This document shows positions 48,199-62,491 of a DNA stretch of 64,000 nt, one piece after another. The stretch's first letter is position 1, and each line of letters starts with the position of its first letter. Source of the DNA: Lacibacter cauensis (lineage in GTDB: Bacteria > Bacteroidota > Bacteroidia > Chitinophagales > Chitinophagaceae). The stretch spans positions 1 through 64,000 of the forward strand of contig NZ_VLLE01000006.1 of the NCBI RefSeq assembly GCF_007830055.1, in the 5' to 3' direction. A model generated the notes under the pieces. The model did no database searches. It was not told the origin of the DNA and saw only the letters and a program-made list of their open reading frames with translations. A program made the translations under genes and the position numbers.

Positions 48199-48444
48199 AT
48201 GACACTTTATCAATTCAATAATCTAGATGAAATGGAACAACTGGAAGCTATTTGGGATAATGGTGTGCAGGTTGCCGAAAGGGAAGACGATGTTAACCGC
48301 TATAAGCTTTACCAGATTGATGCATTTTATGTAGAAGAAGAATGGCACAAGGAGTATAAAGTGCGGCGGGCTTTTAGGAGCTTTGCCAGCACCAATGCAG
48401 AAATGTTAGAACCTTATTTAGATAAGATTAATCTTGGGTTCTAA
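48199..48444 (+). CDS. 81-residue protein, paralogue of the one at 62234
   Basis: A small acidic soluble protein with no domain I recognise. It shares a clear pattern with the 85-residue protein at 62234: an AxRED segment, RYxLY, FYVxExWHKE, F.S....ML.PYL..I, roughly 40 to 45 percent identical by eye. The gene converges with the metallopeptidase gene at the end of the RM operon (42 bases). The paired positions suggest duplication of a defence-associated accessory gene. Confidence 0.65.
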   Translation: MTLYQFNNLDEMEQLEAIWDNGVQVAEREDDVNRYKLYQIDAFYVEEEWHKEYKVRRAFRSFASTNAEMLEPYLDKINLGF

Positions 48445-48486: not shown

Positions 48487-49182
48487 TTAAGCCAACATCT
48501 TTTCCAGCTTTTCTTTCCATTTCTCCCAATCCTTCATCTCTTTCGTTTGTAAATCAATAAACCGTTGTGTATGGTCATGGTGTATTAAATGGCAAAGCTC
48601 ATGGATGATAACATACTCAATGCAGCCTTTGGGAGCTTTAATCAATTCGGGGTTAAGTATGATCTTTCCCTTTGGGGTGCAACTTCCCCAGCGGGTAGGC
48701 ATATCTCTTAACTGAATGGACGTTGGTGCAACTTTGTATTTTTTGAAACGCTCAATCAAAGGACGGGCGATTAAATCAAACTTCACTTTGGAATTTTCCA
48801 AATACCATTCCTTCATCAACTTTTTTACTCTTGCTTTGTCAAGGGTTGTAACCTCAATGAATTTCCCTTTTAGCTTTACAGATTCAACACCTCCGTTTAC
48901 TTGCTTCAAACGATATTGCCTTCCCATGTATAGGTGGGTTTCTCCACTTACAAATTTTCGCACTGGGGTTTTAGGCTGGAATGACAGGAAGAAACTTAGT
49001 TGTTTGATAACCCACGGTGCTTTTTTTGACAGCTTTTCCTTCACCTTCTCAACCGGAGTATCAACCGGAGCTTTTACCACAACTTCCATTTCAGGGGTCA
49101 CAGTAATGCCAAGCGACTTTCTGTTTGAATAAGCGAGTGTAAAATCAATGCGCTTTGAGCCAAATTGAATATGTGAGGTCAT
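48487..49182 (-). CDS. SprT/YgjP-like zinc metallopeptidase (DUF45)
   Basis: A 231-residue metallopeptidase. The zinc motif is HELCH (194-198) with a further His pair at 201-202, preceded by the family segment LRDMPTRWGSCTPKGKIILN. This YgjP-like family is often encoded with type I restriction systems, and here its ATG overlaps the hsdR stop codon by one base (TAATG). It is the last gene of the ten-gene operon. Its role may be to process or clear a restriction component; this is inferred from context only. Confidence 0.9.
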   Translation of the reverse strand: MTSHIQFGSKRIDFTLAYSNRKSLGITVTPEMEVVVKAPVDTPVEKVKEKLSKKAPWVIKQLSFFLSFQPKTPVRKFVSGETHLYMGRQYRLKQVNGGVESVKLKGKFIEVTTLDKARVKKLMKEWYLENSKVKFDLIARPLIERFKKYKVAPTSIQLRDMPTRWGSCTPKGKIILNPELIKAPKGCIEYVIIHELCHLIHHDHTQRFIDLQTKEMKDWEKWKEKLEKMLA

Positions 49183-52100
49183 TACTTATAACGGAGTTTG
49201 GCAACATCAATACATCTACCTGCAATAGTATCCATTTCACCGAACGACAAATCAATGTTGTACTTGTCTCTAACTTCATCAATGAGGTAATCACCAATAT
49301 CAATAAGAAGCTTGCCCGTTATATTTGTCTTATCCTGCCAATCTACAACAGGCTTTCCTTTTTCTAAGACAGCCTTCTGAATCATTTCATCAATTTGTAA
49401 AGCGGCCTGTGTAGAAATTTCCCGTTTGATAATGTCATCCTGTAACTTATCGTCCAAAGCTTCCAGTGTTAAACCATAGAAAGCTTTCGCAACATCTTTA
49501 TCATGTAGTACCTCCGGTATTTCACTATCTGTATGCGCCAGTACATTATTCATGATCTCTTCAACCTTACTCAAGAACTGAGCTTCACTTAATCGCTTTG
49601 CCTCATAGTCTGCTATTGTTTCTTTCAGCATTTGAGAAAACTTTTTATAGAAGGCTGGGTCTTCGTCCATCTTTTCGGTAATATGCTTTGCAGTTCTGCT
49701 TGCAATTTTATCTGCTTTCGCAGCTTTACCTGTTGTGTTTTCTACTTCCTGTTGAAATTTTTCTTTATCAAAGATGTTCACTAACTCAGTAATCACTTCA
49801 ATTTTTTCTGTTGTAATATGGGTGTCAATCAACTTCTGAATCTGTCCTTCGTATTGTTTATAATTCACTTCATCGCTGTACCGTTCAATTACAGCAACAC
49901 GAAGCTTCATAAACGTTGATAAGTCTTCTTTATATCTGTTGATGAGTGATTCATCAACATTACGATGGAACTGAATTGAGGAAAGCGAAAGTTTTAAGCT
50001 TTTAGCAAAGGAAGCAAGCTTATCATAAAAGACAACTCTTATTGCTTTATCCTTCAATAACAATTGATATGCCTCAGCATCCCGTTTGTTTTTTATGGTT
50101 TTAAAAATATCCCAAAGCTCTGAGTGCTTCTGCGGCAGTTTTTTTACCTCTTCCGTAATATTGATTAAAGTCCCAGCTAAGTCTTCGCTATCAAATTCTT
50201 CAAATGAAGAATACATTTTTAAAGCACTGTCAAGCTCTTCAATCACTCCGTAGTAATCAATAATGTACCCAAACTCTTTATCAGGATAAATCCGGTTTAC
50301 CCTCGCTATTGCCTGTAAGAGTTTATGACCTTGCAGGTTTCTTGTGAGGTACAATACAGTATTCTTTGGCTCATCAAACCCAGTTAATAATTTATCAACT
50401 ACAATAATTATTTCAGGGTCTTTTTGATTTTTAAACCGACTGATGAGATTTCGTTCATATGTTTTAGGATTGCCATGCTCTTCCATCATCTTACTCCAAA
50501 ACCTATTTTCCCTTTCTGATGATTTGGCATAAGCACTATCTTCACCCTCCCTGTCATCCAATGGCGAAATCAAAACTTCACTTGATACTATGCCTATTTC
50601 ATCCAAAAACTCTTTGTAACGAATTGCGTTTACCTTTTTATCGCAAACCAATTGTGCTTTAAATGGAGTTCCTTTCCAGTTATTTCTAAAATGCAGACTA
50701 ATATCCCAGGCAATTGCATATATCTTTTGTTCTGCACCGTTTAACTGGTCGGCTCTTGTGAACTTATTTTTTAAATCGGCCTTTTGATAATCTGTTAAAG
50801 GTTCAGATACCATTTCAAAGAAGGTATCAATAGGGCTTTCATTTACCTGTTGTTTGGCAATTCTTCCTTCATATAAAAGAGGCACAACAGCTTTATCTGT
50901 TACAGCTTCATCAACAGTGTAAGAATCAATGATACCCCCAAACTTTTCTGCGGTGCTTTTATGCTTATGAAAAAGTGGAGTTCCGGTAAAAGCAATCAAA
51001 CAGGCATTGGGTAAAGTTTTCTGCATGTCAATATTAAAAATTCCATGCTGCGTTCTGTGTCCTTCATCAACCAATACAAAAATATCGTAACTGTCAAGCG
51101 GCTGGTCAATTTTCTTAATTGCAGCAACAAACTTGTTGATAATGGTTGTCACAATAGCATCGCTTTTGCTTTCCAATAAATCAACCAACCGTTGGCCTGT
51201 TGTTGCATTTTCTACAAACTTGCCGCATTTCCGGAAAGTATTGGTGATCTGACTATCTAAATCTGTGCGGTCTGTTACCAATACAATTTTGGGGTTTTTA
51301 ATGGTTGGTTCCATTGCAATTGCCTGTGCCAGCATCACCATTGTTAACGACTTACCACTTCCCTGTGTATGCCAAACAACACCACCTTTTCTTTTCCCGT
51401 TCTCTATTTGACGAATACGGTTCATTGATTTTTTGATAGCAAAATACTGTTGATACCTTGCTACTTTCTTTTCTCCATCATCAAACAACGTAAAATTGAA
51501 AGCCATTTCCATTAAACGAGAAGGGCTGCATAAGCTTAACAAATATTCATCCTGTACAGTTGGCAAAATTTCCTCTTGCTCCATCGCATCAAAATACTCT
51601 TGCACATACTTAAAGCGGTCGGAAAACAACTTTTCCTTGTGTGATGCTTCAAGCAGTTTGTTTTTGAGTTCAAGTAACTTTCTGCAATATGCATTTTCCT
51701 CATCAGCGTTCACAAATTTCTCCTGCCATTTTGCCCAAAATTTTTCGGGAGTTGCATTTGTTCCATATAAGCCATAATCTTTGGCAATACTTAATAAGAG
51801 CTGGCTGTACACATACAAACTCCGTATACCATCTTCCTGCTGGCTACGCAATTGCTGACTGATTGCCTGACTAAGCGGCTCTTTCATATCAGGCCGCTTA
51901 CACTCAATAATGCAAAGCGGAATACCATTTACAAACAAAACAATATCCGGCCTGTAATGCTCTTTACTCGTGCTACGCATTACACTGTACTCTTCTGTTA
52001 CATGAAACAGGTTGTTAGATATGTTTTTCCAGTCAACGTATTGAAGGGTAAAGCTCTTTTTATCACCATCAATCGATTGTTCTAAAGGCTTTCCTAATGT

Positions 52101-52406
52101 AAGGAGATTGTAAGCCGATTCACAAGCCGACATATACCCTTCGTTCATTGGTAAATCTTTCAAAGCAAGAATACCTCGTTCAATATTTTCGTCAGTAAAA
52201 ATGCTGGTTTTAGTAGCACTGATTTTAATGCTGTTGATTTCTTTCAACTGCTTGCGCAAAATATCTTCAAGTATTACATTGCTTGATTTATTGCCACGTA
52301 GCCTGTCTGCCTCCGCAGGTGTTATGTAAGTATATCCTAACTTTTGCAACATTTGCAAAGCTGGTATCTGACTTATATGATCTTCTTTAAAGCTTGGTGT
52401 GTCCAT
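49182..52406 (-). CDS. hsdR: Type I restriction endonuclease HsdR
   Basis: A 1074-residue motor-nuclease subunit. The N-terminal nuclease domain shows the PD-(D/E)XK residues RPDIVLF (Asp 154) and IIECKRP (Glu 168, Lys 170). The helicase part has Walker A HTQGSGKS (346-353), the DEGH box, FTGTPLF and later motifs (LLTGFDEPK, QAIARVNR). Length and motif order are those of a complete HsdR, which translocates DNA and cuts unmodified targets. Its ATG overlaps the GGDEF gene stop by one base. The other subunits (M and S) lie upstream, separated by CBASS-type genes. Confidence 0.95.
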   Translation of the reverse strand: MDTPSFKEDHISQIPALQMLQKLGYTYITPAEADRLRGNKSSNVILEDILRKQLKEINSIKISATKTSIFTDENIERGILALKDLPMNEGYMSACESAYNLLTLGKPLEQSIDGDKKSFTLQYVDWKNISNNLFHVTEEYSVMRSTSKEHYRPDIVLFVNGIPLCIIECKRPDMKEPLSQAISQQLRSQQEDGIRSLYVYSQLLLSIAKDYGLYGTNATPEKFWAKWQEKFVNADEENAYCRKLLELKNKLLEASHKEKLFSDRFKYVQEYFDAMEQEEILPTVQDEYLLSLCSPSRLMEMAFNFTLFDDGEKKVARYQQYFAIKKSMNRIRQIENGKRKGGVVWHTQGSGKSLTMVMLAQAIAMEPTIKNPKIVLVTDRTDLDSQITNTFRKCGKFVENATTGQRLVDLLESKSDAIVTTIINKFVAAIKKIDQPLDSYDIFVLVDEGHRTQHGIFNIDMQKTLPNACLIAFTGTPLFHKHKSTAEKFGGIIDSYTVDEAVTDKAVVPLLYEGRIAKQQVNESPIDTFFEMVSEPLTDYQKADLKNKFTRADQLNGAEQKIYAIAWDISLHFRNNWKGTPFKAQLVCDKKVNAIRYKEFLDEIGIVSSEVLISPLDDREGEDSAYAKSSERENRFWSKMMEEHGNPKTYERNLISRFKNQKDPEIIIVVDKLLTGFDEPKNTVLYLTRNLQGHKLLQAIARVNRIYPDKEFGYIIDYYGVIEELDSALKMYSSFEEFDSEDLAGTLINITEEVKKLPQKHSELWDIFKTIKNKRDAEAYQLLLKDKAIRVVFYDKLASFAKSLKLSLSSIQFHRNVDESLINRYKEDLSTFMKLRVAVIERYSDEVNYKQYEGQIQKLIDTHITTEKIEVITELVNIFDKEKFQQEVENTTGKAAKADKIASRTAKHITEKMDEDPAFYKKFSQMLKETIADYEAKRLSEAQFLSKVEEIMNNVLAHTDSEIPEVLHDKDVAKAFYGLTLEALDDKLQDDIIKREISTQAALQIDEMIQKAVLEKGKPVVDWQDKTNITGKLLIDIGDYLIDEVRDKYNIDLSFGEMDTIAGRCIDVAKLRYK

Positions 52407-53167
52407 TACACTATTGGTTTTGTACAGTTCTTTCCTTCTGCTTTTTTAGCTACGTTGAGAGCTTCAATAACCCTGTCTGTAAAAGATTTTAAGTCATCCT
52501 CTTTTTTGTATGCTGTTACTCCGCATGAAACAGTTAATTGATGATTCGAGTCATCTACTGAAAAGACTGCCTTTTCAACTAACTTTCTTTTTCTTTCTGC
52601 TGCTTGTGTTGCTTGGCTCAAATTTGTATCACTGGCAACTACTAAAAATTCGTCCCCTCTATTAAAGTAGCGAAACGTTTCGTCAGTTGCTCTTTTATCA
52701 TTACCTAACATTTCCCCAACTTTTTTGAGAATCTGATCAGCAGTGCTAAAACCAAACTTGGTATTAAAGGCTTTAAAATCATCAATATCCAATATAATTA
52801 TCGACAATGATTCGTCTTTCCGCTTGTATTCTTCGATTTTTTGATCTAAAAAATCTTTCAACGCCTTATGATTTTTAAGACCAGTCAATTCGTCTGTATA
52901 GTTATCCATTTGAACTTTTACAAGCTTTCGTTTAAACACCAAACCAACTATTAATGCGGTAACAATAATGAACATCAATGAAGCTATTATTAACCAATAA
53001 ACGGATAAAAGATATTTAGTCGATAGCAAATCTTTTAAACCCGGAATCCAGTTTGTAGGAATCAACAATATCAAAAAAGACAACACCCATTTAAATAAAT
53101 CATAAACGCCATTAGATATTGCGTCTTCTTTAAACTTGCCTAAGAAATTGCCTTTTTGTTTTCCCAT
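52406..53167 (-). CDS. Membrane GGDEF-domain protein
   Basis: A 253-residue protein with two N-terminal TM helices (about 22-38 and 57-78) and a GGDEF domain (about 88-248). Visible GGDEF features are DELTGLKNHKAL, the metal-binding DIDDFKAFN and the active loop FNRGDEFLVV (170-174), where the first Gly is Arg. The G-D of the usual GDxxL segment is AD here. It could be a diguanylate cyclase or a nucleotide sensor. It lies 9 bases after the second nucleotidyltransferase and overlaps hsdR by one base, so it is co-translated with the RM/CBASS operon. A GGDEF enzyme inside a restriction operon is unusual. Confidence 0.82.
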   Translation of the reverse strand: MGKQKGNFLGKFKEDAISNGVYDLFKWVLSFLILLIPTNWIPGLKDLLSTKYLLSVYWLIIASLMFIIVTALIVGLVFKRKLVKVQMDNYTDELTGLKNHKALKDFLDQKIEEYKRKDESLSIIILDIDDFKAFNTKFGFSTADQILKKVGEMLGNDKRATDETFRYFNRGDEFLVVASDTNLSQATQAAERKRKLVEKAVFSVDDSNHQLTVSCGVTAYKKEDDLKSFTDRVIEALNVAKKAEGKNCTKPIV

Positions 53168-53176
53168 GAGTTATGA

Positions 53177-54043
53177 TTAAATGATTGGAAATTTATCCCC
53201 AAATTGTTGCAACCAAATATTCGAAGCCTTTAATTGACTGTCCTGCTGCAATGCTTCTTCTGCATCCCTGATAAGTACGTTGAATGCCTCTTTGAAATTT
53301 GACTTCTGTGTGTAATCTAACTTTGCCAAAAAATCATCTCCTGGAGTAGCAGGATTTCTACTGATTGTTTCCCAGAAAAATGAGTTTCTGATTGCCTTTG
53401 CTGTTTCATAAAATGCAATGTCATCTCTTAGGTTTGCTTTATAGTAAGTGGCTACCCAAATGGAAAATGCAATGCCACTTGGCATTCTTTTATTTCTTTG
53501 TCCCGCCCACGCTTTGAAATATTTGACCAATCGAAGCAATTGCCCTCCTTTGTCTTTTTCCTTGCGTTGTTTTTCAAACCAATCACATAGCTCCTTTGGA
53601 TCGCTTTCTTGCCATTTTGTTTTTGTAGCAAGAAAGGGATGTTTATCATATAAGGTTTTGTAATATACTGGCAAGTCTATATCAAAATCTCCTTTGTAAA
53701 TTACCCTAATGCATTTATCTCTGTGTTCAATGCCTGAAACTGTTTGATCTTTCACAGCATCAGCTACATATTTTTGTAAAGTAATTGGTTCAACAGATGG
53801 CTTGGTAAGAAAGTACACACCTAAGTCTACATCATAGCTGCCATCTTTTTTGACTACCATCGTTTTCATTTTATAAGAACCTTGTATGTAGAACTTGGGT
53901 ACAGGCAAAGTCGTTTTGGTTTTGAAATACTCTATAATTCTTCTTTGTAATGCCTGACGAGATGCAATTAGTTTATTCTTCCTCGGAAGTGTAAGAGAAA
54001 TTGCTTGTTCAAATTTCAGAAATTGATTGTGGGTATTTGCCAT
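53177..54043 (-). CDS. CD-NTase-like nucleotidyltransferase 2 (CBASS)
   Basis: A 288-residue nucleotidyltransferase of the OAS/cGAS fold. The donor motif GS is at 55-56 (FYIQGSYKMKTMV), and the metal aspartates are YDVDLGVYF (Asp 71, Asp 73) and a third in DFDIDLPVYY (Asp 121 or 123). This pattern is that of CBASS enzymes that make cyclic nucleotides after infection. I start at the ATG at 54043; an ATG at 54136 would add a hydrophobic segment (LLRVLGVAVGGLILKKLF) and overlap the patatin gene by 68 bases. It follows the patatin gene directly, resembling the capV-dncV arrangement. Confidence 0.78.
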   Translation of the reverse strand: MANTHNQFLKFEQAISLTLPRKNKLIASRQALQRRIIEYFKTKTTLPVPKFYIQGSYKMKTMVVKKDGSYDVDLGVYFLTKPSVEPITLQKYVADAVKDQTVSGIEHRDKCIRVIYKGDFDIDLPVYYKTLYDKHPFLATKTKWQESDPKELCDWFEKQRKEKDKGGQLLRLVKYFKAWAGQRNKRMPSGIAFSIWVATYYKANLRDDIAFYETAKAIRNSFFWETISRNPATPGDDFLAKLDYTQKSNFKEAFNVLIRDAEEALQQDSQLKASNIWLQQFGDKFPII

Positions 54044-54068
54044 ATCATTATATTTTATTTCCTCATCG

Positions 54069-55142
54069 CTAAACAGTTTTTTGAGTATCAGCCCACCGAC
54101 TGCCACTCCCAAAACTCTTAATAATATTGGTAGCATTATTTTGAAATTCTATTGTTGCTTTTTCTGCAAGCTTTTTAAGTTTATCCTTATCGGTTTCATC
54201 CATTTCAATTAAACAACTTTCATCTAATTGAGTATCTATACGAATGTATCCGAAGTTATCTGGTTCTCTTCTGTCAATACCATTTTTTAAAATGCTGATT
54301 AAGTTTTGAACTTGTTGGGTTTGTCCCTGCATAAATACATCAATCAACCTTTTCTTACCATCTTCAAGCATCCAATATTTAATGCCATACTTGACACGAT
54401 GCTTTTTCTTCTTATCTAAACCGGCATCACAAAATCGTTGATGCCCAGTTCCGATAGATAGTACCGATATGTCCTTTAACTCAAGATTGAAAGCCTTTTT
54501 GGCTTCAATGATTCCATTTAGTGTTGGGTTATTAGCAAATACACCTCCATCCACTTTGTTTTGAAATGGCTTTTCAAGTCCGTTTAAATCAATGTAAGAA
54601 CTGGAATAAGGATCAAAGTAAGTTGGAGCTGCAGACGTTGCCAGCGCTGCTTGATAGGCGGGAATATGATAATCCCTAACAAAAGATTCATGGTATTTAC
54701 TTTTTAAAACCGAAGGTCTGCCTTCCATTAAATCGTAAATAGGAATTGCCACATGTGTTTTACAATGCTTTAACCTTGGGTCTTCTCCATCTTCTCCGTT
54801 GTGGTATGCTTTATATTTTTCTTTTACCAATTTTTCTAATTCGTCACGTGTATGTGCAGCATATTTGAAGCGCTTTAGAAAGCCTTTTTTCTTTCCAAAA
54901 ATAGTTTGTGCATTGTTCAAGTAGAGTTCGTAAATTTCTTTTGCAGGAATACCTAATGCCAATGCAATAGCCATAATGCCTCCGGTAGATGTACCGCAGA
55001 TCAAATCAAAGTTTTGAAAAACTTGCCATTTCTCAACTCCTTTGGCTTTAAGTTCTGATTCATAATTGGCTAAAAGCATAGCAGGGAATACACCTCTTAT
55101 ACCCCCTCCGTCAATAGACAATATTTTAAAAGATTCTGACAT
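54069..55142 (-). CDS. Patatin-like phospholipase (CapV-type CBASS effector)
   Basis: A 357-residue phospholipase with the oxyanion motif DGGGIRG (11-17), the catalytic GTSTGG (Ser 52) and the DGG dyad (Asp 198, in KVDGGVFANN). Size and motifs match CapV, the CBASS effector that is activated by a cyclic nucleotide and degrades the inner membrane. It lies one base after the full-length hsdS gene and is followed by a nucleotidyltransferase gene, so it is a likely effector of that enzyme or of the one at 56802. The cyclic-nucleotide specificity cannot be read from sequence. Confidence 0.85.
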   Translation of the reverse strand: MSESFKILSIDGGGIRGVFPAMLLANYESELKAKGVEKWQVFQNFDLICGTSTGGIMAIALALGIPAKEIYELYLNNAQTIFGKKKGFLKRFKYAAHTRDELEKLVKEKYKAYHNGEDGEDPRLKHCKTHVAIPIYDLMEGRPSVLKSKYHESFVRDYHIPAYQAALATSAAPTYFDPYSSSYIDLNGLEKPFQNKVDGGVFANNPTLNGIIEAKKAFNLELKDISVLSIGTGHQRFCDAGLDKKKKHRVKYGIKYWMLEDGKKRLIDVFMQGQTQQVQNLISILKNGIDRREPDNFGYIRIDTQLDESCLIEMDETDKDKLKKLAEKATIEFQNNATNIIKSFGSGSRWADTQKTV

Positions 55143-55143
55143 A

Positions 55144-56352
55144 TTACTTAATTCTTGTTTTACCAGTTAATAATTGTTGCATCAACCCTTTCTTCTTTTG
55201 TCTCAGCTTCTCAACCTTAGACTTCAAAAGTGATATTTCTTTATCTGCCATTAGCAAAATTTTGGCAATGGCGGCTTGTTCTTCAAGCGATGGTAGATGG
55301 ATTTTAATAATGGAAAAAGCATCCCAACGTAGTCCCCCCCTGCGATCAATCGATCCCTCCATTCTGTTTTGATATTGATAAACCAATGGGTGAGATTTCA
55401 ACAGTCTATAAAAGAAATGGTCATTAACAGATTTGTCAGTTTTAAAAACAGTGTACATTGGGCTTATCAAAGCCTCATCGTAGGATTCCTGATAACCAAT
55501 ACTTCCTTCTTCAATATGGTTTGTAGCGTAAGCAAAATGATTTTTAGGTACAATCTTGTAAGGACTAACATCATCCGCAAAAATCCTTCTGCCAAAGTAT
55601 TCAAGCGAAGGAACAAGTCCGCTATATTTCGTGCAAGACAACACTGTTAATTGTTTATCAGTTTTATTTCTAATACTGACTTCGTTTGCTATATCACGAA
55701 TGTGTACTTCCTTCCACTCTTCTGCAAAACCTTCAATGCGTTTTTTCCCCGTCAGCAATTGCTTTATGAGCCATTTTTTGCGGAGCTCTTTTTGAACGAT
55801 GAGCAGCTCAACAATCTTTATATTAAGATCACATGAACCCAAAATGGCTGCAATAGCTTTTTGCTCAAATATTGGGGGAAGTGGAATTGGGATGTTCTCA
55901 AGCGAGTTTTTGGTTAGCTTATATCTTCCAGCTCCTTGTCTTGTTAGATATGGAGTTAATTCCTTATGATTGAAATAATAAAAAAACCATTCGGTGATAT
56001 TCTTAGAGCCTTTGATTACATGAGCATGATTATTTACATTAAACTTTCCCTCAACAAGAAGAGTCATGGGCAACTCTTTCCATTTTAAAAAATGATCGCC
56101 ATCTTCACCAATCAAGACGTATTTCCCATCTAACCTATATTCATTAATATAGTCCTGAACCTTAGTTGGTCCATAGTATGGATATATGCCTTTTATTTTC
56201 TTGCGTTCCTCTTCGCTTATGGGAAACCTTAAGTTGTTGCATATCTCAAACGCTACTCCAACAGTGCTAATTTCCCAATCAGCCGGAATCAAAAGATTAT
56301 AAAAAGTCTTTTTATCTTCTTCAACTTTGTTTTTTCCTGCTGCTTGCTTCAT
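55144..56352 (-). CDS. hsdS: Type I restriction specificity subunit HsdS (full length)
   Basis: A 402-residue specificity subunit with two target-recognition domains, each followed by a conserved helix. The first ends in IPIPLPPIFEQKAIAAILG and the second in IHLPSLEEQAAIAKILLMAD; both helices carry the LxxQKAI/EEQAAIA pattern. The C-terminus ends KGLMQQLLTGKTRIK, and a similar QLLTGKKRIEG sits between the two domains. It gives DNA sequence specificity to HsdM and HsdR. It overlaps the E2-like gene by 32 bases and sits between CBASS genes rather than beside hsdM. Confidence 0.93.
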   Translation of the reverse strand: MKQAAGKNKVEEDKKTFYNLLIPADWEISTVGVAFEICNNLRFPISEEERKKIKGIYPYYGPTKVQDYINEYRLDGKYVLIGEDGDHFLKWKELPMTLLVEGKFNVNNHAHVIKGSKNITEWFFYYFNHKELTPYLTRQGAGRYKLTKNSLENIPIPLPPIFEQKAIAAILGSCDLNIKIVELLIVQKELRKKWLIKQLLTGKKRIEGFAEEWKEVHIRDIANEVSIRNKTDKQLTVLSCTKYSGLVPSLEYFGRRIFADDVSPYKIVPKNHFAYATNHIEEGSIGYQESYDEALISPMYTVFKTDKSVNDHFFYRLLKSHPLVYQYQNRMEGSIDRRGGLRWDAFSIIKIHLPSLEEQAAIAKILLMADKEISLLKSKVEKLRQKKKGLMQQLLTGKTRIK

Positions 56353-56812
56353 CTATTGTTTCTTTTTGTTTGTCAGCTTGTTTTTCAACTCCGGTTTCGT
56401 TGTGTATACCGCCACCTTGCCATGTGCCAGTACAAAGCCATATTTCATAGTGACAGAGCCATTCACATGCCCAAGGCACAACGGTGTCTGCTACGAGCAT
56501 ATTGCTGTTCCATTCTTTTGCTTTTCTATAGTAGAGGCAGAGCCATTGCTTCTCAGTATCATAAACATGAGGAAGTGTTGATTCTCCCGGAAATAGAATA
56601 AGCTTCGGAGCAACCACATAAACGTTCGGATTTTCACCCCTTACATAATGAAGTTTGACCTCATAAATACTACTCAACGGTGTTGGGGTTATGCTACTTT
56701 CCCACGTTAATTCATTTTGCGAAAAACGAATAGTAGAACTGGGAAAAACAGATCGAAGCCTTCCCGCTTGTACACCCATATTTAAACTGTGGTGTTTTAA
56801 CTTACTTGCCAT
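56321..56812 (-). CDS. E2-like protein of short type II CBASS
   Basis: A 163-residue protein resembling the stand-alone E2-like (Cap2-short) proteins of type II CBASS, which attach the nucleotidyltransferase C-terminus to a target. Visible features are a beta-strand region, the presumed catalytic Cys in QWLCLYYRK (Cys 92), then LVADTVVPWACEWL and the tail motif TGTWQGGGIH. No E1 or protease domain is present, as in the short form. It overlaps the stop of the preceding nucleotidyltransferase by 11 bases, so the two are translationally coupled. I judge the family by motif order, with moderate certainty. Confidence 0.65.
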   Translation of the reverse strand: MASKLKHHSLNMGVQAGRLRSVFPSSTIRFSQNELTWESSITPTPLSSIYEVKLHYVRGENPNVYVVAPKLILFPGESTLPHVYDTEKQWLCLYYRKAKEWNSNMLVADTVVPWACEWLCHYEIWLCTGTWQGGGIHNETGVEKQADKQKETIDEASSRKKQS

Positions 56813-58025
56813 GAAAATTATGTCCTTTTATCGTTGTTCCTACATTACCAATAGTTCCAGTTCCCGCAGCCATTTTCAGAATACCACTTTCTCTTTGTTG
56901 AAATTTTTGTGCACCGTAGTTGCTGAAAGTTTTCGTAACAGCTTCTTTACCGAAAGGCTTAATCATTGATTCGCTGATAAATTGCTGCCCTCTTCCTTTT
57001 TGACCGAGTACGTTGTTTAAATCCTTTTTCAACTCCTCTAACCACCTATAGAAATTCTTTTGCCTTTGCGGATATTCTACCCATTTGTCAGCAAAGTTTT
57101 CCTGTTCATTAACGGGATTTACTACCCATTTTATTGACTTTCCATGTCTTGCAGACCACCGATCTTCGATGAAGTCTGTCATATTGTTTACAACATTGAT
57201 TAGTCCTTCAATAATATTTGTTTCCCTTCCGTAAGCTTTTGCAGCCAATGTTGTAATAATGATTGAAATTGGCTTATCATCATCGCCATTAAACATCATG
57301 TCTCGATGCCTTTTTAAGATTTGTACAATGCGTTGTAAAGGCATTTTCTTTGTTTGATAGTTTGGTACGGGCTGAATAGATTCGCTAAGCAGCCTAATCT
57401 CCTGAAGCGCAGTTTTTGAACGCTCCTGAAACCAAATTGCATATCCAAAAGGATTGCTTTTCATCCACTCTTGAAGATTAGAAGATGTTCTGTAAATGGG
57501 TGATGTATTATCTGTAATTCTAACACCTAATCGTTCAGCATCGGAAAAGTCATTATTAGAAAAGGCTTTTTCAAGAATAGCTTTATATCCAGCAACAACC
57601 ACGGAAGGAAGAACGTCTAAGTGAAATTTTGCTGAGTCAGCGTACTGTAACGTCCAACACCTTCTGCCATCAGGCTTCTTGAGTAGTCGTTCAAGCATCT
57701 TGTTTGATTTTAACCGATCACCTACCATATGCTTTAGGCCATACTGTGTTAAACCTGGCCTTACTTTTTCAAGTTTACATACAAGGTCAATATCAAGTTC
57801 ATCATCCTCGTGGATGGGCTTTATCATTGTTTGCAATAAAAAAGATCCTTGCGGCAAAATTTCCGGGCTGTAATCTGCCAATGGTGAATCTTTTTGCGAT
57901 AGCCATTCTGCAACATGCGTATAACTTGTTACTGCTGCATTATATTGGGTTTCTGTTATGTCAAGTGTTTTACCCAGTTCTTCCAAAATATCACTGAATT
58001 GTTGCTTTTGTTCAATTGTTAGCAT
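56802..58025 (-). CDS. CD-NTase-like nucleotidyltransferase 1 (CBASS)
   Basis: A 407-residue nucleotidyltransferase. The donor motif is LPQGSFLLQTMI (Gly 60, Ser 61), the metal aspartates lie in DDELDIDLV (Asp 78, Asp 80) and the third in AKFHLDVLPS (Asp 137). The C-terminus ends in a flexible, Gly-rich tail (GTIGNVGTTIKGHNFHGK), the kind of tail that E2-like proteins conjugate in CBASS. It lies one base after hsdM and is followed by the E2-like gene with an 11-base overlap. Clearly different in sequence and length from the second enzyme at 53177. Confidence 0.8.
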   Translation of the reverse strand: MLTIEQKQQFSDILEELGKTLDITETQYNAAVTSYTHVAEWLSQKDSPLADYSPEILPQGSFLLQTMIKPIHEDDELDIDLVCKLEKVRPGLTQYGLKHMVGDRLKSNKMLERLLKKPDGRRCWTLQYADSAKFHLDVLPSVVVAGYKAILEKAFSNNDFSDAERLGVRITDNTSPIYRTSSNLQEWMKSNPFGYAIWFQERSKTALQEIRLLSESIQPVPNYQTKKMPLQRIVQILKRHRDMMFNGDDDKPISIIITTLAAKAYGRETNIIEGLINVVNNMTDFIEDRWSARHGKSIKWVVNPVNEQENFADKWVEYPQRQKNFYRWLEELKKDLNNVLGQKGRGQQFISESMIKPFGKEAVTKTFSNYGAQKFQQRESGILKMAAGTGTIGNVGTTIKGHNFHGK

Positions 58026-58026
58026 A

Positions 58027-59595
58027 TTATATTGTTTTTATTTGTTTAAGGTATTTTTCCATTTCAGCCTGTACGCTTTTCAATTCCTCTTCAAGCAGGT
58101 TAATCTCACGTTGCACTTCTTCAATATCAACTTCCGGTTCTTCTTCAAACGTATCTACGTAACGAGGTATATTCAAATTAAAATCGTTGTCTTTAATTTC
58201 TGCCAGTGTAGCAACATAGCTAAACCTTTCTTCAACAACACCAGCCGGAAGTTGCCCCTGATTAAACTTTCGATAAGTAGATACAATATCTTCAATGTGC
58301 TTTGTGTTGAGTTTATTTTGATTTTTACCGCTATCATACCTTTGGCTTGCATCAATAAATATCACGTTGGTGTTATCGCCTTTGGCTTTATTGAAAATTA
58401 TTATTGCCGCAGGTATGCCTGTTCCAAAAAACAGGTTAGCAGGCAAACCAATTACAGCTTCAAGCAGGTTTTCTTCAATCGTTTTCTGCCTTATTTTACC
58501 CTCACTTGCACCACGAAACAATACGCCATGTGGCACAACCACACCTGCCTTTCCTTGCTCATTCAATGTTTCAATCATGTGGCTGATAAAAGCCCAATCA
58601 CCTTTGCTCTTTGGTGGTACGCCACGCCAAAACCTGTTATAACGATCTGTTTCCGGGTCGTACGAAACGGTTTTCTTCTCTTCGTCTTTGTCTTCCACCT
58701 TTCCCCATTTATCCAATGAGAAAGGAGGGTTAGCAACAACTGTATCAAACTTCATCAGTTCATCACCCACTTTCAGTTTTGGGTTGCGTATTGTATCACC
58801 CCAGCGGATTACAGCATTATCAAAGCCATGCAGGAACATATTCATTACAGCCAAAGCCCAGGTGCTGCCGTTTGCCTCCTGACCATACAATGAAAAATTA
58901 TCTGAACCTACTTCCTCACCAGCTTTAATAAGTAAGGAAGCAGACCCGCAGGTAGGGTCGCATATACGTGATCCCGGTTTTGATTTTGTGAGTTTTGCCA
59001 GCAAGGTTGATACTTCCTTTGGCGTAAAAAATTCACCAGCTTTTTTGCCCGCATCACTGGCAAAGTTTTCAATGAGGAACATATAAGCGCCCCCAATGAT
59101 GTCAACACCATCTAAATGTGATGGACGAAGATCAAGCGCATCTTTATTGAAATCAAGCAACAGGTTTTTCAGCCTTGTATTTTTGTCCTTTGGTTCACCC
59201 AGTTTGCTGCTGTTAAAATCAATGTTCTGGAAAATACCTGCACCATCTTCACTGTACAGCTTCTCCCTGTTTGCTTCTTCCAAATCAACCAAAGCAATAT
59301 TAATTAGCTCACCGATATTTGTTTCGTTGCGGTTATTGTACAAATATTTGAAATGGCTGTTCTCAGGAACTACAAAACGCTCATGCTGCATGGCACGTTT
59401 TGCACGTTCAACATCACCGTTGTACTTTTTCAGGTAAGTTTCCATTTTATCATCATGTACATCACTGAGGTACTTGATAAAAAGCATGGTTAGCACATAA
59501 TCTTTGTAAACGCTTGGGTCAATGCTGCCACGAAATGTATCGCAAGCTTTCCAAACTGCATCGTTAATATCTTTCTGTGTTATTTTCTTTGACAT
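58027..59595 (-). CDS. hsdM: Type I DNA adenine methyltransferase HsdM
   Basis: A 522-residue N6-adenine methyltransferase. The SAM-binding motif I reads ICDPTCGSASLL (211-222), and the catalytic motif IV is NPPF (289-292), flanked by VVANPPFSLDKWG. The N-terminal HsdM_N helical domain spans about 1-160, and a C-terminal coiled coil (about 490-522) could contact HsdS. It modifies host DNA and, with HsdS and HsdR, forms the restriction complex. It lies 5 bases after the half-length HsdS gene and one base before nucleotidyltransferase 1. Confidence 0.95.
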   Translation of the reverse strand: MSKKITQKDINDAVWKACDTFRGSIDPSVYKDYVLTMLFIKYLSDVHDDKMETYLKKYNGDVERAKRAMQHERFVVPENSHFKYLYNNRNETNIGELINIALVDLEEANREKLYSEDGAGIFQNIDFNSSKLGEPKDKNTRLKNLLLDFNKDALDLRPSHLDGVDIIGGAYMFLIENFASDAGKKAGEFFTPKEVSTLLAKLTKSKPGSRICDPTCGSASLLIKAGEEVGSDNFSLYGQEANGSTWALAVMNMFLHGFDNAVIRWGDTIRNPKLKVGDELMKFDTVVANPPFSLDKWGKVEDKDEEKKTVSYDPETDRYNRFWRGVPPKSKGDWAFISHMIETLNEQGKAGVVVPHGVLFRGASEGKIRQKTIEENLLEAVIGLPANLFFGTGIPAAIIIFNKAKGDNTNVIFIDASQRYDSGKNQNKLNTKHIEDIVSTYRKFNQGQLPAGVVEERFSYVATLAEIKDNDFNLNIPRYVDTFEEEPEVDIEEVQREINLLEEELKSVQAEMEKYLKQIKTI

Positions 59596-59600
59596 ATCTT

Positions 59601-60158
59601 CTATTTTAATGTATTAAAAATTTGTTGTTGAATTAATTGTTCACGCAATGCTTCTATTTTCCTGTACAACCAGCTTTCACGTTGTTGTAATGAGGCAATA
59701 TGTAAAATTGCTTGCTGCTGTTCAACGCTCGGCACGGGAATTTCCAGTTCGTCCAAAACAGTTTTTGAAATAGAGACAATGGACGAACCAATTGCCTGTT
59801 CTTTCAAAAATGTCATTGTTGTTGGATGATTTAAATACCAAGCTAAATATGCAGGGAGAATACCGTTTTGGTAAAGCCTGATTACAAAAAACGAAGTGGA
59901 AGCTACCGCTGGAGGATTATGGCTTTCATAGATAGCAGCAAAGTTTTTTGCTCCTTTGGCAGCAAAAAGAATATCGCCTTGTTTAAGCAGGTGTTTTTCA
60001 GTAACTTTATTTGCTTTGAGATCGGGGTGCAAAGCCTCTTGAAGATGTCCATTTTCATCAAAATGCTTCACCTGCAAATAGGTAACATTCCCCGCCTGTT
60101 CAGGCTTGGCAAAGAGCCCTGTTTGAAGTTTTGCAATATCTTTAATTTTATGTCTCAC
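59601..60158 (-). CDS. Half-length HsdS-like specificity protein
   Basis: A 185-residue protein with a single target-recognition domain followed by one conserved helix (LEIPVPSVEQQQAILHIASL). Half-length specificity subunits can work as homodimers or pair with a full subunit. It is the first gene of the operon and is translated from a GTG at 60158, since no ATG is available upstream. Together with the full-length hsdS at 55144 the operon encodes two specificity proteins. Confidence 0.85.
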   Translation of the reverse strand: MRHKIKDIAKLQTGLFAKPEQAGNVTYLQVKHFDENGHLQEALHPDLKANKVTEKHLLKQGDILFAAKGAKNFAAIYESHNPPAVASTSFFVIRLYQNGILPAYLAWYLNHPTTMTFLKEQAIGSSIVSISKTVLDELEIPVPSVEQQQAILHIASLQQRESWLYRKIEALREQLIQQQIFNTLK

Positions 60159-60448
60159 AAATTTATATTTAAGTATTGGGACTACAAAAATGAGATATTG
60201 CTGTCAAATCTCCAAGCTATTTTATATTTATTTTGAAGTAGCCGTTCTACAAATATTGACATAATATTCTATTCAATTGAATTATAGCGTTTTGTAGCTT
60301 GGATATTTTTCAAATTTATCAATAAAAATCTGCTGAATTGTTCGTCTCTAAGGTTTATAACTCCTCCTTTTTTTGAAAGTTAATAGAAAAATATAAGTAT
60401 GGATATTGATATTCGATATTCAAGAATAGCAGCAATTTAAGATTGGCA
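60159..60448. other. Divergent regulatory region of RM/CBASS operon and toxin-antitoxin pair
   Basis: 290 bases of very AT-rich sequence without a gene. It must contain the promoter of the ten-gene minus-strand operon. I see no clear -33/-7 pair, tRNA or operator other than the tandem repeat at 60449-60519, which adjoins the rightward gene. Confidence 0.5.
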
Positions 60449-60519
60449 TGTCACAATTATTACTAAATATGTGACATTATTTGTACTAAAATGTCACAAT
60501 TATTACTAAATTTGTGACA
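60449..60519. promoter_or_regulatory. Tandem palindromic operator of the AbiE-type pair
   Basis: Two copies, 60449-60476 and 60492-60519, of a 28-bp sequence starting TGTCACAATTATTACTAAAT. Each has ends that are inverted repeats of each other (TGTCACA / TGTGACA), and the second copy ends one base before the DUF6088 ATG. The start-to-start spacing is 43 bases, about four helical turns. AbiEi-family antitoxins are known to bind paired inverted repeats in front of their own gene, so this is a strong autoregulatory site. Confidence 0.85.
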
Positions 60520-60520
60520 A

Positions 60521-61123
60521 ATGGAAAAGGCTCATACAATTATAAACAACTCACTTTCAAAGAAAAAGCCGGGAGAATTGCTTTTTCTATCTGATTTCAA
60601 GGGTGCAGGTTCAGATGCAGCCATCAGGCAAAGTCTTTCACGGCTTGTGCGGGCAGGCAGAATAAAAAGGATAGCGCATGGTATCTATTATTTACCGAAA
60701 ACAGATCCCCTGCTGGGCGAACTACATCCTTCTGCCGAAGAAATAGCACAAAAAATAGCGGCGAAAGAAAGGGTGCGCATTCAACCATCGGGTGCTTATG
60801 CTCTTAATAAGCTGGGACTGAGTACACAGGTACCTACCAGGTTAGTGTATTTAACCGATGGACCTCAAAGACTGATTACAGTGGGTAAAATGAAAATCAG
60901 GTTCAAGGCTACAACAGCAAAAAAGCTCTCTCTGAAAGGTGACCTGAGCAAGTTAATTATTCTGGCACTTGATGAACTGGATTTAAAAAATATGGATGAG
61001 CGGAGGGAAGCAAGAATCAAGGATCTGTTGTTAAAAGAAGATCCCAAAAAACTTAAGCATGATTTGTCGCTTGCACCAGGCCGTACACATGATTATATTG
61101 TAAAACTTTTAAAGCAGAAATAG
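60521..61123 (+). CDS. DUF6088 (AbiEi-like) antitoxin
   Basis: A 200-residue protein with an N-terminal winged-helix domain (about 10-75, AAIRQSLSRLVRAGRIKRIAHG) and a C-terminal AbiEi-like domain with RIQPSGAYALNKLGLSTQ. DUF6088 proteins are the antitoxin and transcriptional repressor of type IV toxin-antitoxin pairs. It begins next to a tandem palindromic operator and ends one base before the toxin ATG, so the two are co-expressed. Confidence 0.88.
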   Translation: MEKAHTIINNSLSKKKPGELLFLSDFKGAGSDAAIRQSLSRLVRAGRIKRIAHGIYYLPKTDPLLGELHPSAEEIAQKIAAKERVRIQPSGAYALNKLGLSTQVPTRLVYLTDGPQRLITVGKMKIRFKATTAKKLSLKGDLSKLIILALDELDLKNMDERREARIKDLLLKEDPKKLKHDLSLAPGRTHDYIVKLLKQK

Positions 61124-61124
61124 G

Positions 61125-62156
61125 ATGACAGGATGGTTATTGCTGACCGAAGAACAACGAAAAACTACTATCTCAGAAGCACAAATAAGATCGGGTGTTA
61201 TTGAGAGTGTAAAAGCAATTGAAAAAGACTGGTGGGTTACACTGGTTTTAAAAGCATTATTTCAATCGGCCTATGCGGAGCATCTTGTTTTTAAAGGAGG
61301 CACCTCATTAAGTAAAGGTTTTAAACTCATTAATCGTTTTTCGGAAGATATTGATCTGGCACTTGGTTGTGAAGCATTTGGGATGCAGTATGAAGAAAAC
61401 CCAACACCAAGTTATATAAGCAGGTTAAGGAGAAAAGGATTTGACTTTGCAACTACAAAGTTGCTAGATGAACTCCGCAATCAACTTACTGTTTTGGGTG
61501 TTCCTGATTCTATGGTCATATTGGATTTTGAACCCAGCCCACCAAATCAAACACCTGCAGACCCCGTCACTATTTATGTAAAGTATAAATCTCTATATGA
61601 TACCAACAAATATATTGCCGACCAGGTAAAAATTGAATTAAGTGTTCGGTCACGAAGCATACCCTTTACAACAAGACCAGTACTATCGCTATTGACTGAA
61701 TTTTTCTTCAATGACGCCTACGAAGAAACCGCTTTTGATGTTACAATTGTTGAGCCCAGGAAAACGTTTTTGGAAAAAGTGTTTTTATTGCACGAAGAAT
61801 TCAGCAAAAAAGAAAAGGCTCAAATAAGAACTGAACGGATGTCCCGGCATTTGTATGATCTGGCGACAATGATGCAAACCAATGTACTTAATGATGCGTT
61901 AGCAGATCATGCGTTATATGATTCATTGATTGACCATCGCAGGAAATACATTGCTGTTTCGTGGGCTGACTATGATACACTCCACCATTCTACTATTTCA
62001 TTTATACCACCAGCTGAAGTTGTAAATGCATACGAATTTGACTATGCAATAATGCTAAGCGAAATGATTTATGGAGATAGTTTGGATTTCAAGGCTATCA
62101 TTGAACAGTTAAAAGTGCTGCAAGAAAAAATCAGGCAAAAGTTGGATGTAAAGTAA
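61125..62156 (+). CDS. AbiEii-type nucleotidyltransferase toxin
   Basis: A 343-residue nucleotidyltransferase. The donor motif is FKGGTSLSKG (57-66) and the metal-binding pair lies in SEDIDLAL (Asp 75, Asp 77), both typical of AbiEii/AbiGii toxins, which add nucleotides to tRNA or block growth. It follows its DUF6088 antitoxin after one base. With that partner it forms a type IV, abortive-infection style toxin-antitoxin system between the RM/CBASS operon and the TrlF-like gene. Confidence 0.9.
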   Translation: MTGWLLLTEEQRKTTISEAQIRSGVIESVKAIEKDWWVTLVLKALFQSAYAEHLVFKGGTSLSKGFKLINRFSEDIDLALGCEAFGMQYEENPTPSYISRLRRKGFDFATTKLLDELRNQLTVLGVPDSMVILDFEPSPPNQTPADPVTIYVKYKSLYDTNKYIADQVKIELSVRSRSIPFTTRPVLSLLTEFFFNDAYEETAFDVTIVEPRKTFLEKVFLLHEEFSKKEKAQIRTERMSRHLYDLATMMQTNVLNDALADHALYDSLIDHRRKYIAVSWADYDTLHHSTISFIPPAEVVNAYEFDYAIMLSEMIYGDSLDFKAIIEQLKVLQEKIRQKLDVK

Positions 62157-62233: not shown

Positions 62234-62491
62234 ATGACTCCCTCTCAATTTCATGAACTCGAATGCGAAGAGCAAATGCTCGAAATCTTTAACAATGCCG
62301 TAGAGCTTGCTGTACGGGAAGATGCAGAACACCGGTATCACTTATATAAACTACACGATTTTTATGTAGACGAAATGTGGCATAAGGAAGAATGTGCAAG
62401 AGTGGCTATAAAAACGTTTACTTCTGTGGAGTCGGCAATGTTGCGGCCTTATTTGGAAAGGATTGATATTGCCTGCTTAGAAAGGAAATAA
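62234..62491 (+). CDS. 85-residue protein, paralogue of the one at 48199
   Basis: A small acidic soluble protein with the pattern REDxxxRYxLY, FYVDEMWHKE and MLRPYLERID, shared with the 81-residue protein at 48199. I do not know the family. It lies between the AbiEii toxin gene and the TrlF-like gene, on the same strand as both. The two paralogues flank the RM/CBASS operon on either side. Confidence 0.65.
   Translation: MTPSQFHELECEEQMLEIFNNAVELAVREDAEHRYHLYKLHDFYVDEMWHKEECARVAIKTFTSVESAMLRPYLERIDIACLERK

Follow-up and report, generated by a model that had tools for sequence, protein, structure and literature searches.

In the short type II cyclic oligonucleotide-based antiphage signalling system (CBASS) of Serratia marcescens, a stand-alone E2-like protein processes the C-terminus of the CD-NTase (the cyclase) and activates it by conjugation. 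Type II CBASS with an E1-E2 protein also conjugates through a C-terminal glycine of the cyclase (PMC10449767). Defence genes that lie between the hsd genes of type I restriction-modification (RM) operons have been described, namely PrrC (PMC12707154), TgvAB (PMC11411939) and DarTG2 (PMC12255303), and PrrC in such a locus is known to sense inhibition of RM (PMC12707154). In Panoptes the synthase makes a decoy nucleotide; mCpol genes coupled or fused to 2TM domains have also been reported, and the authors of that work speculate that further Panoptes-like systems await discovery (PMC12657218). GGDEF domains are listed as rare nucleotide-signal generators in conflict systems of the vWA-MoxR type (PMC7159879). 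Our statements about all these papers, here and below, refer to excerpts of their texts. The subject of this report is a run of ten minus-strand genes, from 60158 to 48487, in a 64,000 nucleotide stretch of Lacibacter cauensis DNA (positions 1 to 64,000 of contig NZ_VLLE01000006.1, assembly GCF_007830055.1; this whole stretch is called "the window" below), in which a CBASS is interleaved with a type I RM operon.

We consider it probable that a type I RM operon serves here as a chassis for cargo, with a slot before and another after hsdS, that the two slots now hold a single two-cyclase CBASS cut by hsdS, and that the whole is a layered defence in which a membrane GGDEF protein likely acts as a guard. 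The order of the ten genes, all of them intact open reading frames (ORFs), is half-size hsdS, hsdM, CD-NTase 1, E2, hsdS, patatin, CD-NTase 2, membrane GGDEF, hsdR and ygjP. Their profile matches are, in the same order, Methylase_S, N6_Mtase/HsdM_N, SMODS/DncV-like, E2, Methylase_S, Patatin, DncV-like/SMODS, GGDEF, HSDR_N/SWI2_SNF2 and YgjP (the E2 has no Pfam match and is recognized by PADLOC PDLC00863 at 4e-54), so that the gene families named in an earlier, sequence-only reading of this DNA are confirmed. That reading had also described a run with small gaps and overlaps, and its ORFs, coordinates and junctions hold: the junctions are, in gene order, a gap of 5 bases, a gap of 1, overlaps of 11 and 32, gaps of 1, 25 and 9, and two one-base overlaps (TAATG). 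The largest gap, 25 bases, presumes that CD-NTase 2 starts at an inner ATG, position 54043 (a start at 54136, that of the longer ORF, would give a 68-base overlap with the patatin gene); this is the most likely start because in the longer ORF both the PADLOC and the NCBIfam match start only at residue 32. The N-terminal extension is absent from the G005 orthologue and present in the G072 ORF (G and L numbers designate genomes and loci). Motifs are intact in the proteins in which they were checked (HsdM, HsdR, both CD-NTases, patatin, GGDEF and YgjP). The presence of HsdM, HsdS and HsdR with intact motifs argues for a type I RM assignment, and two CD-NTases with GS and DxD...D motifs, together with an effector of a known class (model NF041079, above cut-off), argue for CBASS.

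The same gene order is present in two other genera (G072 and G005), except that each has one extra gene between the GGDEF gene and hsdR; G072 has a Fic gene there and G005 one for an AlbA_2/HATPase protein. The sequence-only reading had proposed a composite locus with CBASS genes between hsdM, hsdS and hsdR and had suggested a search for conserved synteny; that search upholds it, since the order is conserved in three genera with the CBASS interleaved with hsdS. The CBASS proteins of G072 and G005 are 54–90% identical to those of the window, and over the whole locus the lowest identity is 29%, for the hsdS of G005, and the highest 90%, for the patatin of G072. Since these two genomes repeat the order, the arrangement is real and maintained, and is more than chance. 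Misassembly and pseudogenes were considered and rejected in view of the recurrence of the order in three genera and of the checked motifs, which are intact.

The RM genes themselves form a chassis that carries many kinds of cargo. An HsdM query of 214 genomes of the family Chitinophagaceae (E<=1e-150) yielded 20 loci in 19 genomes (17 fetched loci, L075, L076 and that of the window), and all 20 have the layout hsdM, slot 1, hsdS, slot 2, hsdR, YgjP, with YgjP as the last chassis gene in every one and a half-size HsdS as the first gene in 19; in one of them, L176, hsdR is spread over two frames. Mechanical ORF calling puts genes in slot 1 of 17 of the 20 loci, and likewise in slot 2 of 17. The cargo, which was scanned in part, includes protein kinases, Fic, RhuM, a metallophosphatase with DUF3800, DUF6119, AlbA_2 and Bro-N, as well as genes without any match among those scanned (encoding 336 amino acids in L176, 253 in L185, 366 in L187 and 245 in L179). 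CBASS cargo is present in at least six of the 20 loci, a minimum in view of the cargo scanned and of the genes without a match: five have a split CBASS and the sixth has a different CBASS, in slot 2. Thus RM and CBASS genes are not always separate in homologous loci, a point on which the sequence-only reading had staked its case. Three chassis loci of other families, found through CBASS queries, hold undivided CBASS: L091 has patatin-cyclase-E2 in slot 2, and L149 and L150 have HNH-SAVED-cyclase and HNH-SAVED-cyclase-E2, respectively, in slot 1.

In the five family loci with CD-NTase 1 and E2 in slot 1, slot 2 opens with a CBASS effector every time; it holds patatin-CD-NTase 2-GGDEF in the window, G072 and G005, and an HNH-SAVED nuclease in the two G134 loci (G134a and G134b). 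The E2 gene overlaps hsdS in four of the five, by 32 bases in the window and by candidate start codons in G072, G134a and G134b, and in G005 a short gap separates them. Away from RM operons the parts adjoin one another, as CD-NTase 1-E2-patatin-CD-NTase 2 in L090 and as CD-NTase 1-E2-patatin in L151; the 19.9 kb retrieved for each of these loci contain no RM gene. Therefore the two CBASS halves belong together, and either hsdS intruded or the CBASS was inserted around hsdS. At 8388-9476 of L090, after CD-NTase 2 where the GGDEF gene would be, there is a gene for a 362-residue protein of no known family. Pairwise identities differ from part to part. HsdM is 84–91% identical among the window, G072 and G134a; G072 and G134a have CD-NTase 1 proteins that are 87% identical and E2 proteins that are 85% identical, but unrelated slots 2; and G072 and the window are 90% identical in patatin and 84% in CD-NTase 2, but only 59% in CD-NTase 1 and 58% in E2. 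For this reason the sequences indicate that the chassis, the sensor half and the effector half have separate histories, and that the halves have been exchanged independently. Relatives of CD-NTase 1 are present in 70 plasmid records (the neighbourhood of one of these was examined), and a CD-NTase 1 search of viral contigs gave no match.

The two cyclases differ at their C-termini. The nearest solved relatives of CD-NTase 1 are 9woo (the best) and then SmCdnG (8hsb), whose E2 is also the sole clear solved relative of the window's E2. CD-NTase 1 scores below the cut-off of the cGAMP-synthase model NF041078 (cGAMP, cyclic GMP-AMP) and CD-NTase 2 above it. The active-site cysteine of the E2, in an LCLYY segment, is conserved in all nine aligned E2s, and H402 and G406 in the tail of CD-NTase 1 are invariant in the eight aligned E2-linked orthologues. 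These residues belong to a motif, [HT]-x-[FN]-x-G, a few residues from the end, and G313, G317, G336 and G328, loci with one cyclase and an E2 of this same kind, have a similar one. Two-cyclase loci (window, G072, G005, G331 and the Runella plasmid) have exactly one tailed cyclase in five of five cases. Overall, all 13 loci whose E2 is of the window's kind have exactly one tailed cyclase, and the four scored loci without E2 have none (Fisher p=4e-4, which is only indicative, as the motif was written after the sequences had been seen and several of the loci are related). The set without E2 comprises G404, G050, G009 and G087, as judged by BLAST with the window's E2 and PADLOC scans of the neighbours; the cyclases of G541 and G634 and one of G658 have no tail and are uncounted, their neighbours being unchecked for E2. 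The tailed enzyme in Runella belongs to the CD-NTase 2 family, and therefore the pairing of a tailed with a tail-less cyclase arose with different partners. The AlphaFold model of CD-NTase 1 (mean pLDDT 48) is uninformative on the tail. The cyclases beside a longer E2 (210-274 amino acids) in L152, L088 and L104 are without the H/T-x-F/N-x-G tail and have different ends.

The GGDEF protein has a strongly hydrophobic stretch at about residues 50-85, with a weaker one before it, and no extracellular sensor domain. Its signature is RGDEF, and D127, N135, D144, D172 and E173, which we take to be the catalytic and guanine-contact positions by analogy with canonical diguanylate cyclases, are invariant among its relatives. 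The AlphaFold model is of moderate quality (67.8), and the domain alone was used for comparison; its fold is that of canonical diguanylate cyclases (DosC, PleD), and the 50 best folds shown are all diguanylate cyclase/GGDEF entries. In residues 159-174 the hairpin before RGDEF is two residues longer than in DosC, a feature kept in six aligned relatives. The window genome (G000, 99.99% complete) has one GGDEF protein, the one encoded in this locus, and no EAL and no PilZ protein; other c-di-GMP (cyclic di-GMP) receptor types were not searched. The same was found in four other genomes with an intact membrane GGDEF (G072, G005, G050 and G009: one GGDEF each, no EAL and no PilZ), and any GGDEF at all is present in only 11 of 288 family genomes, one each.

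A query with the GGDEF protein found a relative in six of 294 family genomes, that of the window included. Seven membrane GGDEF copies were found in all, and six of them adjoin a patatin and a CD-NTase; the CD-NTases are of three families and the gene orders are four: patatin-CD-NTase-GGDEF (window, G072 and G005), CD-NTase-patatin-GGDEF (G050), GGDEF-patatin-CD-NTase (G009) and a divergent arrangement on Runella slithyformis plasmid pRUNSL02. Their neighbours are unselected, because every copy except the window's was found through the GGDEF search. This repeated association, in four orders and with three cyclase families, suggests that the membrane GGDEF protein is a CBASS component. The type is rare outside the family, because a GGDEF profile finds only the window's own copy in 395 genomes of the phylum at E<=1e-40; at E<=1e-20 it finds one of 72,556 plasmid records. 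A GGDEF query of named genomes gave 67 loci with 26–42% identity, apparently generic GGDEF proteins, which were set aside; alignment against viral contigs gave 31 loci with 29–40% identity.

These observations can be assembled into a model. Slot 1 would be the sensing half, made up of CD-NTase 1 and the E2 that acts on its C-terminal tail, and slot 2 the killing half, with the patatin, the tail-less CD-NTase 2 and the membrane GGDEF enzyme. With the ten genes presumably co-transcribed, RM would act as the first layer of defence; should infection proceed, the E2 would process CD-NTase 1 next to Gly406 and conjugate it, cyclic-nucleotide output would rise, and CD-NTase 2 would add cGAMP outside E2 control. 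The patatin would then open the membrane, and the infected cell would die before phage release. The GGDEF enzyme would make a cyclic dinucleotide (predicted to be c-di-GMP), most likely as protection of the CBASS against nucleotide sponges or nucleases of phages. Recombination around hsdS would affect both halves, so that specificity, sensor and effector could be reshuffled. A bolder version, which we hold tentatively and think somewhat doubtful, is a combinatorial immune operon in which such recombination reshuffles specificity, sensor and effector while the membrane GGDEF, as a new kind of guard, plays for CBASS the part of mCpol in Panoptes: it makes a tonic decoy dinucleotide, for which the cell has no other known use, and a phage protein that sponges up or cleaves cyclic nucleotides brings about death through the membrane part of the guard or through the patatin.

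The sequence-only reading had proposed restriction failure or DNA damage as the trigger of the CBASS. Such direct coupling, in which restriction inhibition, unmethylated sites or HsdR-made DNA ends would switch on the CBASS as with PrrC beside EcoPrrI, could draw on the interleaving within one locus in three genera, on the E2/hsdS overlap in four of the five split loci (by candidate start codons) and on the ability of PrrC in a type I locus to sense RM inhibition (PMC12707154). The same CBASS unit nevertheless occurs without RM (L090 and L151), the same chassis holds unrelated cargo, and the cassettes are exchanged without the chassis. The proposed trigger is therefore unsupported, and we judge direct coupling distinctly unlikely; because both partners exist free and are exchanged independently, the CBASS appears to need no RM for sensing. 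A modular, swappable, layered defence fits these comparisons better than a fixed RM-to-CBASS trigger; co-expression and layering, with cassettes exchanged around hsdS, account for the data with the fewest assumptions, and cross-talk between the layers is still compatible with it. Mere hitch-hiking, with the RM operon a stable, addictive landing place, the layers sharing transcription only and the GGDEF gene a passenger, would account well for the great diversity of the cargo and for the Fic (G072) and AlbA_2 (G005) genes that adjoin GGDEF; it is also improbable, if a little less so, since random filling would not give a slot 2 that opens with a CBASS effector in five of five CD-NTase 1-E2 loci, and since GGDEF accompanies patatin-CD-NTase pairs outside RM operons too. 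That the GGDEF protein is an ordinary diguanylate cyclase for general c-di-GMP signalling, in the operon by chance, agrees with its canonical sequence and fold (DosC, PleD) and with the retention of the guanine-contact residues of canonical enzymes. We regard this as very improbable, given that the window genome and four other carriers have no other GGDEF, no EAL and no PilZ (with the limit on receptor types given above), and that six of the seven copies adjoin a patatin and a CD-NTase.

Several findings weigh against the layered, two-slot account that we prefer. The seventh GGDEF copy (G253, L079 9792-10433) is truncated and adjoins a PADLOC defence candidate, PDC-S05, and not a CBASS; six of the seven copies come from one family, and in three of these the gene order goes back to one ancestor. 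The L090 CBASS and both G134 loci lack GGDEF, which hence is not essential to the cyclase-E2 half. Loci with the longer kind of E2 (G419, G468 and G658) have a tailed cyclase in none of three cases, and loci with a fused E1-E2 (G429 and G378), which lie outside the 13, 3 and 4 loci counted, have the tail in neither; because of these two groups the tail, by its distribution in the sequences, goes with one kind of E2 and not with E2 in general, and a different tail may serve the longer kind. The relatives have some wider gaps, with 74 bases after hsdM, 45 before CD-NTase 2, and 90 and 64 (G005) or 118 and 251 (G072) around the extra gene, so a single transcript is less certain in G072 and G005. 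Finally, the claim of the sequence-only reading that every subunit must come from a single message is an inference; a scan of the window with a Bacteroidota-type promoter motif gave matches at chance level (10 against 7.2 expected). One match (60158-60188) reaches into the start codon by a single base and was not used as evidence.

If the preferred account is true, with sensor and effector halves on either side of a specificity gene and independent exchange of each, immune operons would be assemblies of interchangeable plug-in parts. The tailed/tail-less cyclase pair makes the role of the E2 directly testable inside one operon.

Table 1. Genes of the interleaved RM-CBASS locus, in gene order (window positions)
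Gene or product	Position	Strand	Features
Half-size HsdS, 185 aa, first gene	59601..60158	-	Methylase_S
HsdM N6-adenine methyltransferase	58027..59595	-	N6_Mtase/HsdM_N; NPPF intact
CD-NTase 1, 407 aa	56802..58025	-	GS and DID...HLD motifs; C-terminal tail ends HNFHGK
E2-like conjugating enzyme, 163 aa	56321..56812	-	Cys92; nearest solved relative is E2 of 8hsb
HsdS specificity subunit, 402 aa	55144..56352	-	Start overlaps E2 by 32 bases; between the CBASS halves
Patatin-like phospholipase	54069..55142	-	NF041079 above cut-off; GTSTG and DGG intact
CD-NTase 2, 288 aa from inner ATG	53177..54043	-	NF041078 above cut-off; no C-terminal tail
Membrane GGDEF protein, 253 aa	52406..53167	-	RGDEF; hydrophobic stretch about 50-85
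HsdR	49182..52406	-	Nuclease-like motif and GSGKS
YgjP-like metallopeptidase, last gene	48487..49182	-	HELCH

Divergent from the operon, at 60521-62156 on the plus strand, are a DUF6088/AbiEi-like gene and then an AbiEii nucleotidyltransferase toxin gene. The AbiEi-like gene is immediately preceded by two copies (60449-60476 and 60492-60519) of a 28-base palindrome-like element, TGTCACAATTATTACTAAATnTGTGACA, and this pair is possibly the operator of that gene. The RM-CBASS and AbiE island is flanked by two paralogous small plus-strand genes, at 48199-48444 and 62234-62491, that are 44% identical and have no Pfam match. This small gene has four copies in the genome and relatives in four of the five same-genus genomes searched, and the paralogues may mark an insertion hotspot.

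The embedding of defence genes in type I RM operons is thus already known, and the view of the sequence-only reading that islands normally place such systems side by side does not stand, as embedding between hsd genes is documented (PMC11411939, PMC12255303). DarTG2, as presented in PMC12255303, occupies the hsdS-hsdR slot, the equivalent of slot 2 here. Compared with PrrC, TgvAB and DarTG2 as they are presented in the excerpts, the window's locus fills both slots, and one system is divided between them with either half exchangeable. Like E2-CBASS (type II-short; Serratia marcescens CdnG, 8hsb), it has a stand-alone E2 with an active-site cysteine and a cyclase tail with a glycine near the C-terminus (where processing is predicted), but it adds a tail-less second CD-NTase and GGDEF, and the operon is divided, with hsdS between the E2 and the patatin. 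The patatin scores above the cut-off of the cGAMP-activated phospholipase model, and CD-NTase 2 above that of the cGAMP-synthase model, as expected of a CapV-type phospholipase CBASS, to which the window's locus adds a second cyclase, the E2 and GGDEF.

In Panoptes (OptS/OptE), too, a cyclic-nucleotide synthase with a palm domain lies close to a patatin CBASS that has ubiquitin-like conjugation (PMC12657218). Unlike Panoptes as that text portrays it, the window has GGDEF in place of mCpol (the GGDEF match scores 110 bits, and that to Cas10 palm2 24.1 bits, below the model cut-off of 27), its synthase is itself membrane-anchored, and there is no S-2TM-beta effector gene (OptE-like) among the ten genes. 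The GGDEF protein may still act in a Panoptes-like manner while falling outside Panoptes proper, and a CBASS-dedicated GGDEF, if true, would be a second, independent solution to the Panoptes problem of detecting removal of the alarm signal by the phage. The vWA-MoxR systems are not CBASS, and the excerpts of PMC7159879 describe no CD-NTase or patatin partner for their GGDEF domains. In the search listings of open-access papers and in the excerpts, no account turned up of CBASS within a type I operon or split by hsdS, of a cyclase pair with one tailed and one tail-less member, or of GGDEF as part of a CBASS. Set against all of these systems, two features of the window's locus look new, the possession of two cyclases of which exactly one is tailed and the membrane GGDEF protein beside a patatin and a CD-NTase.

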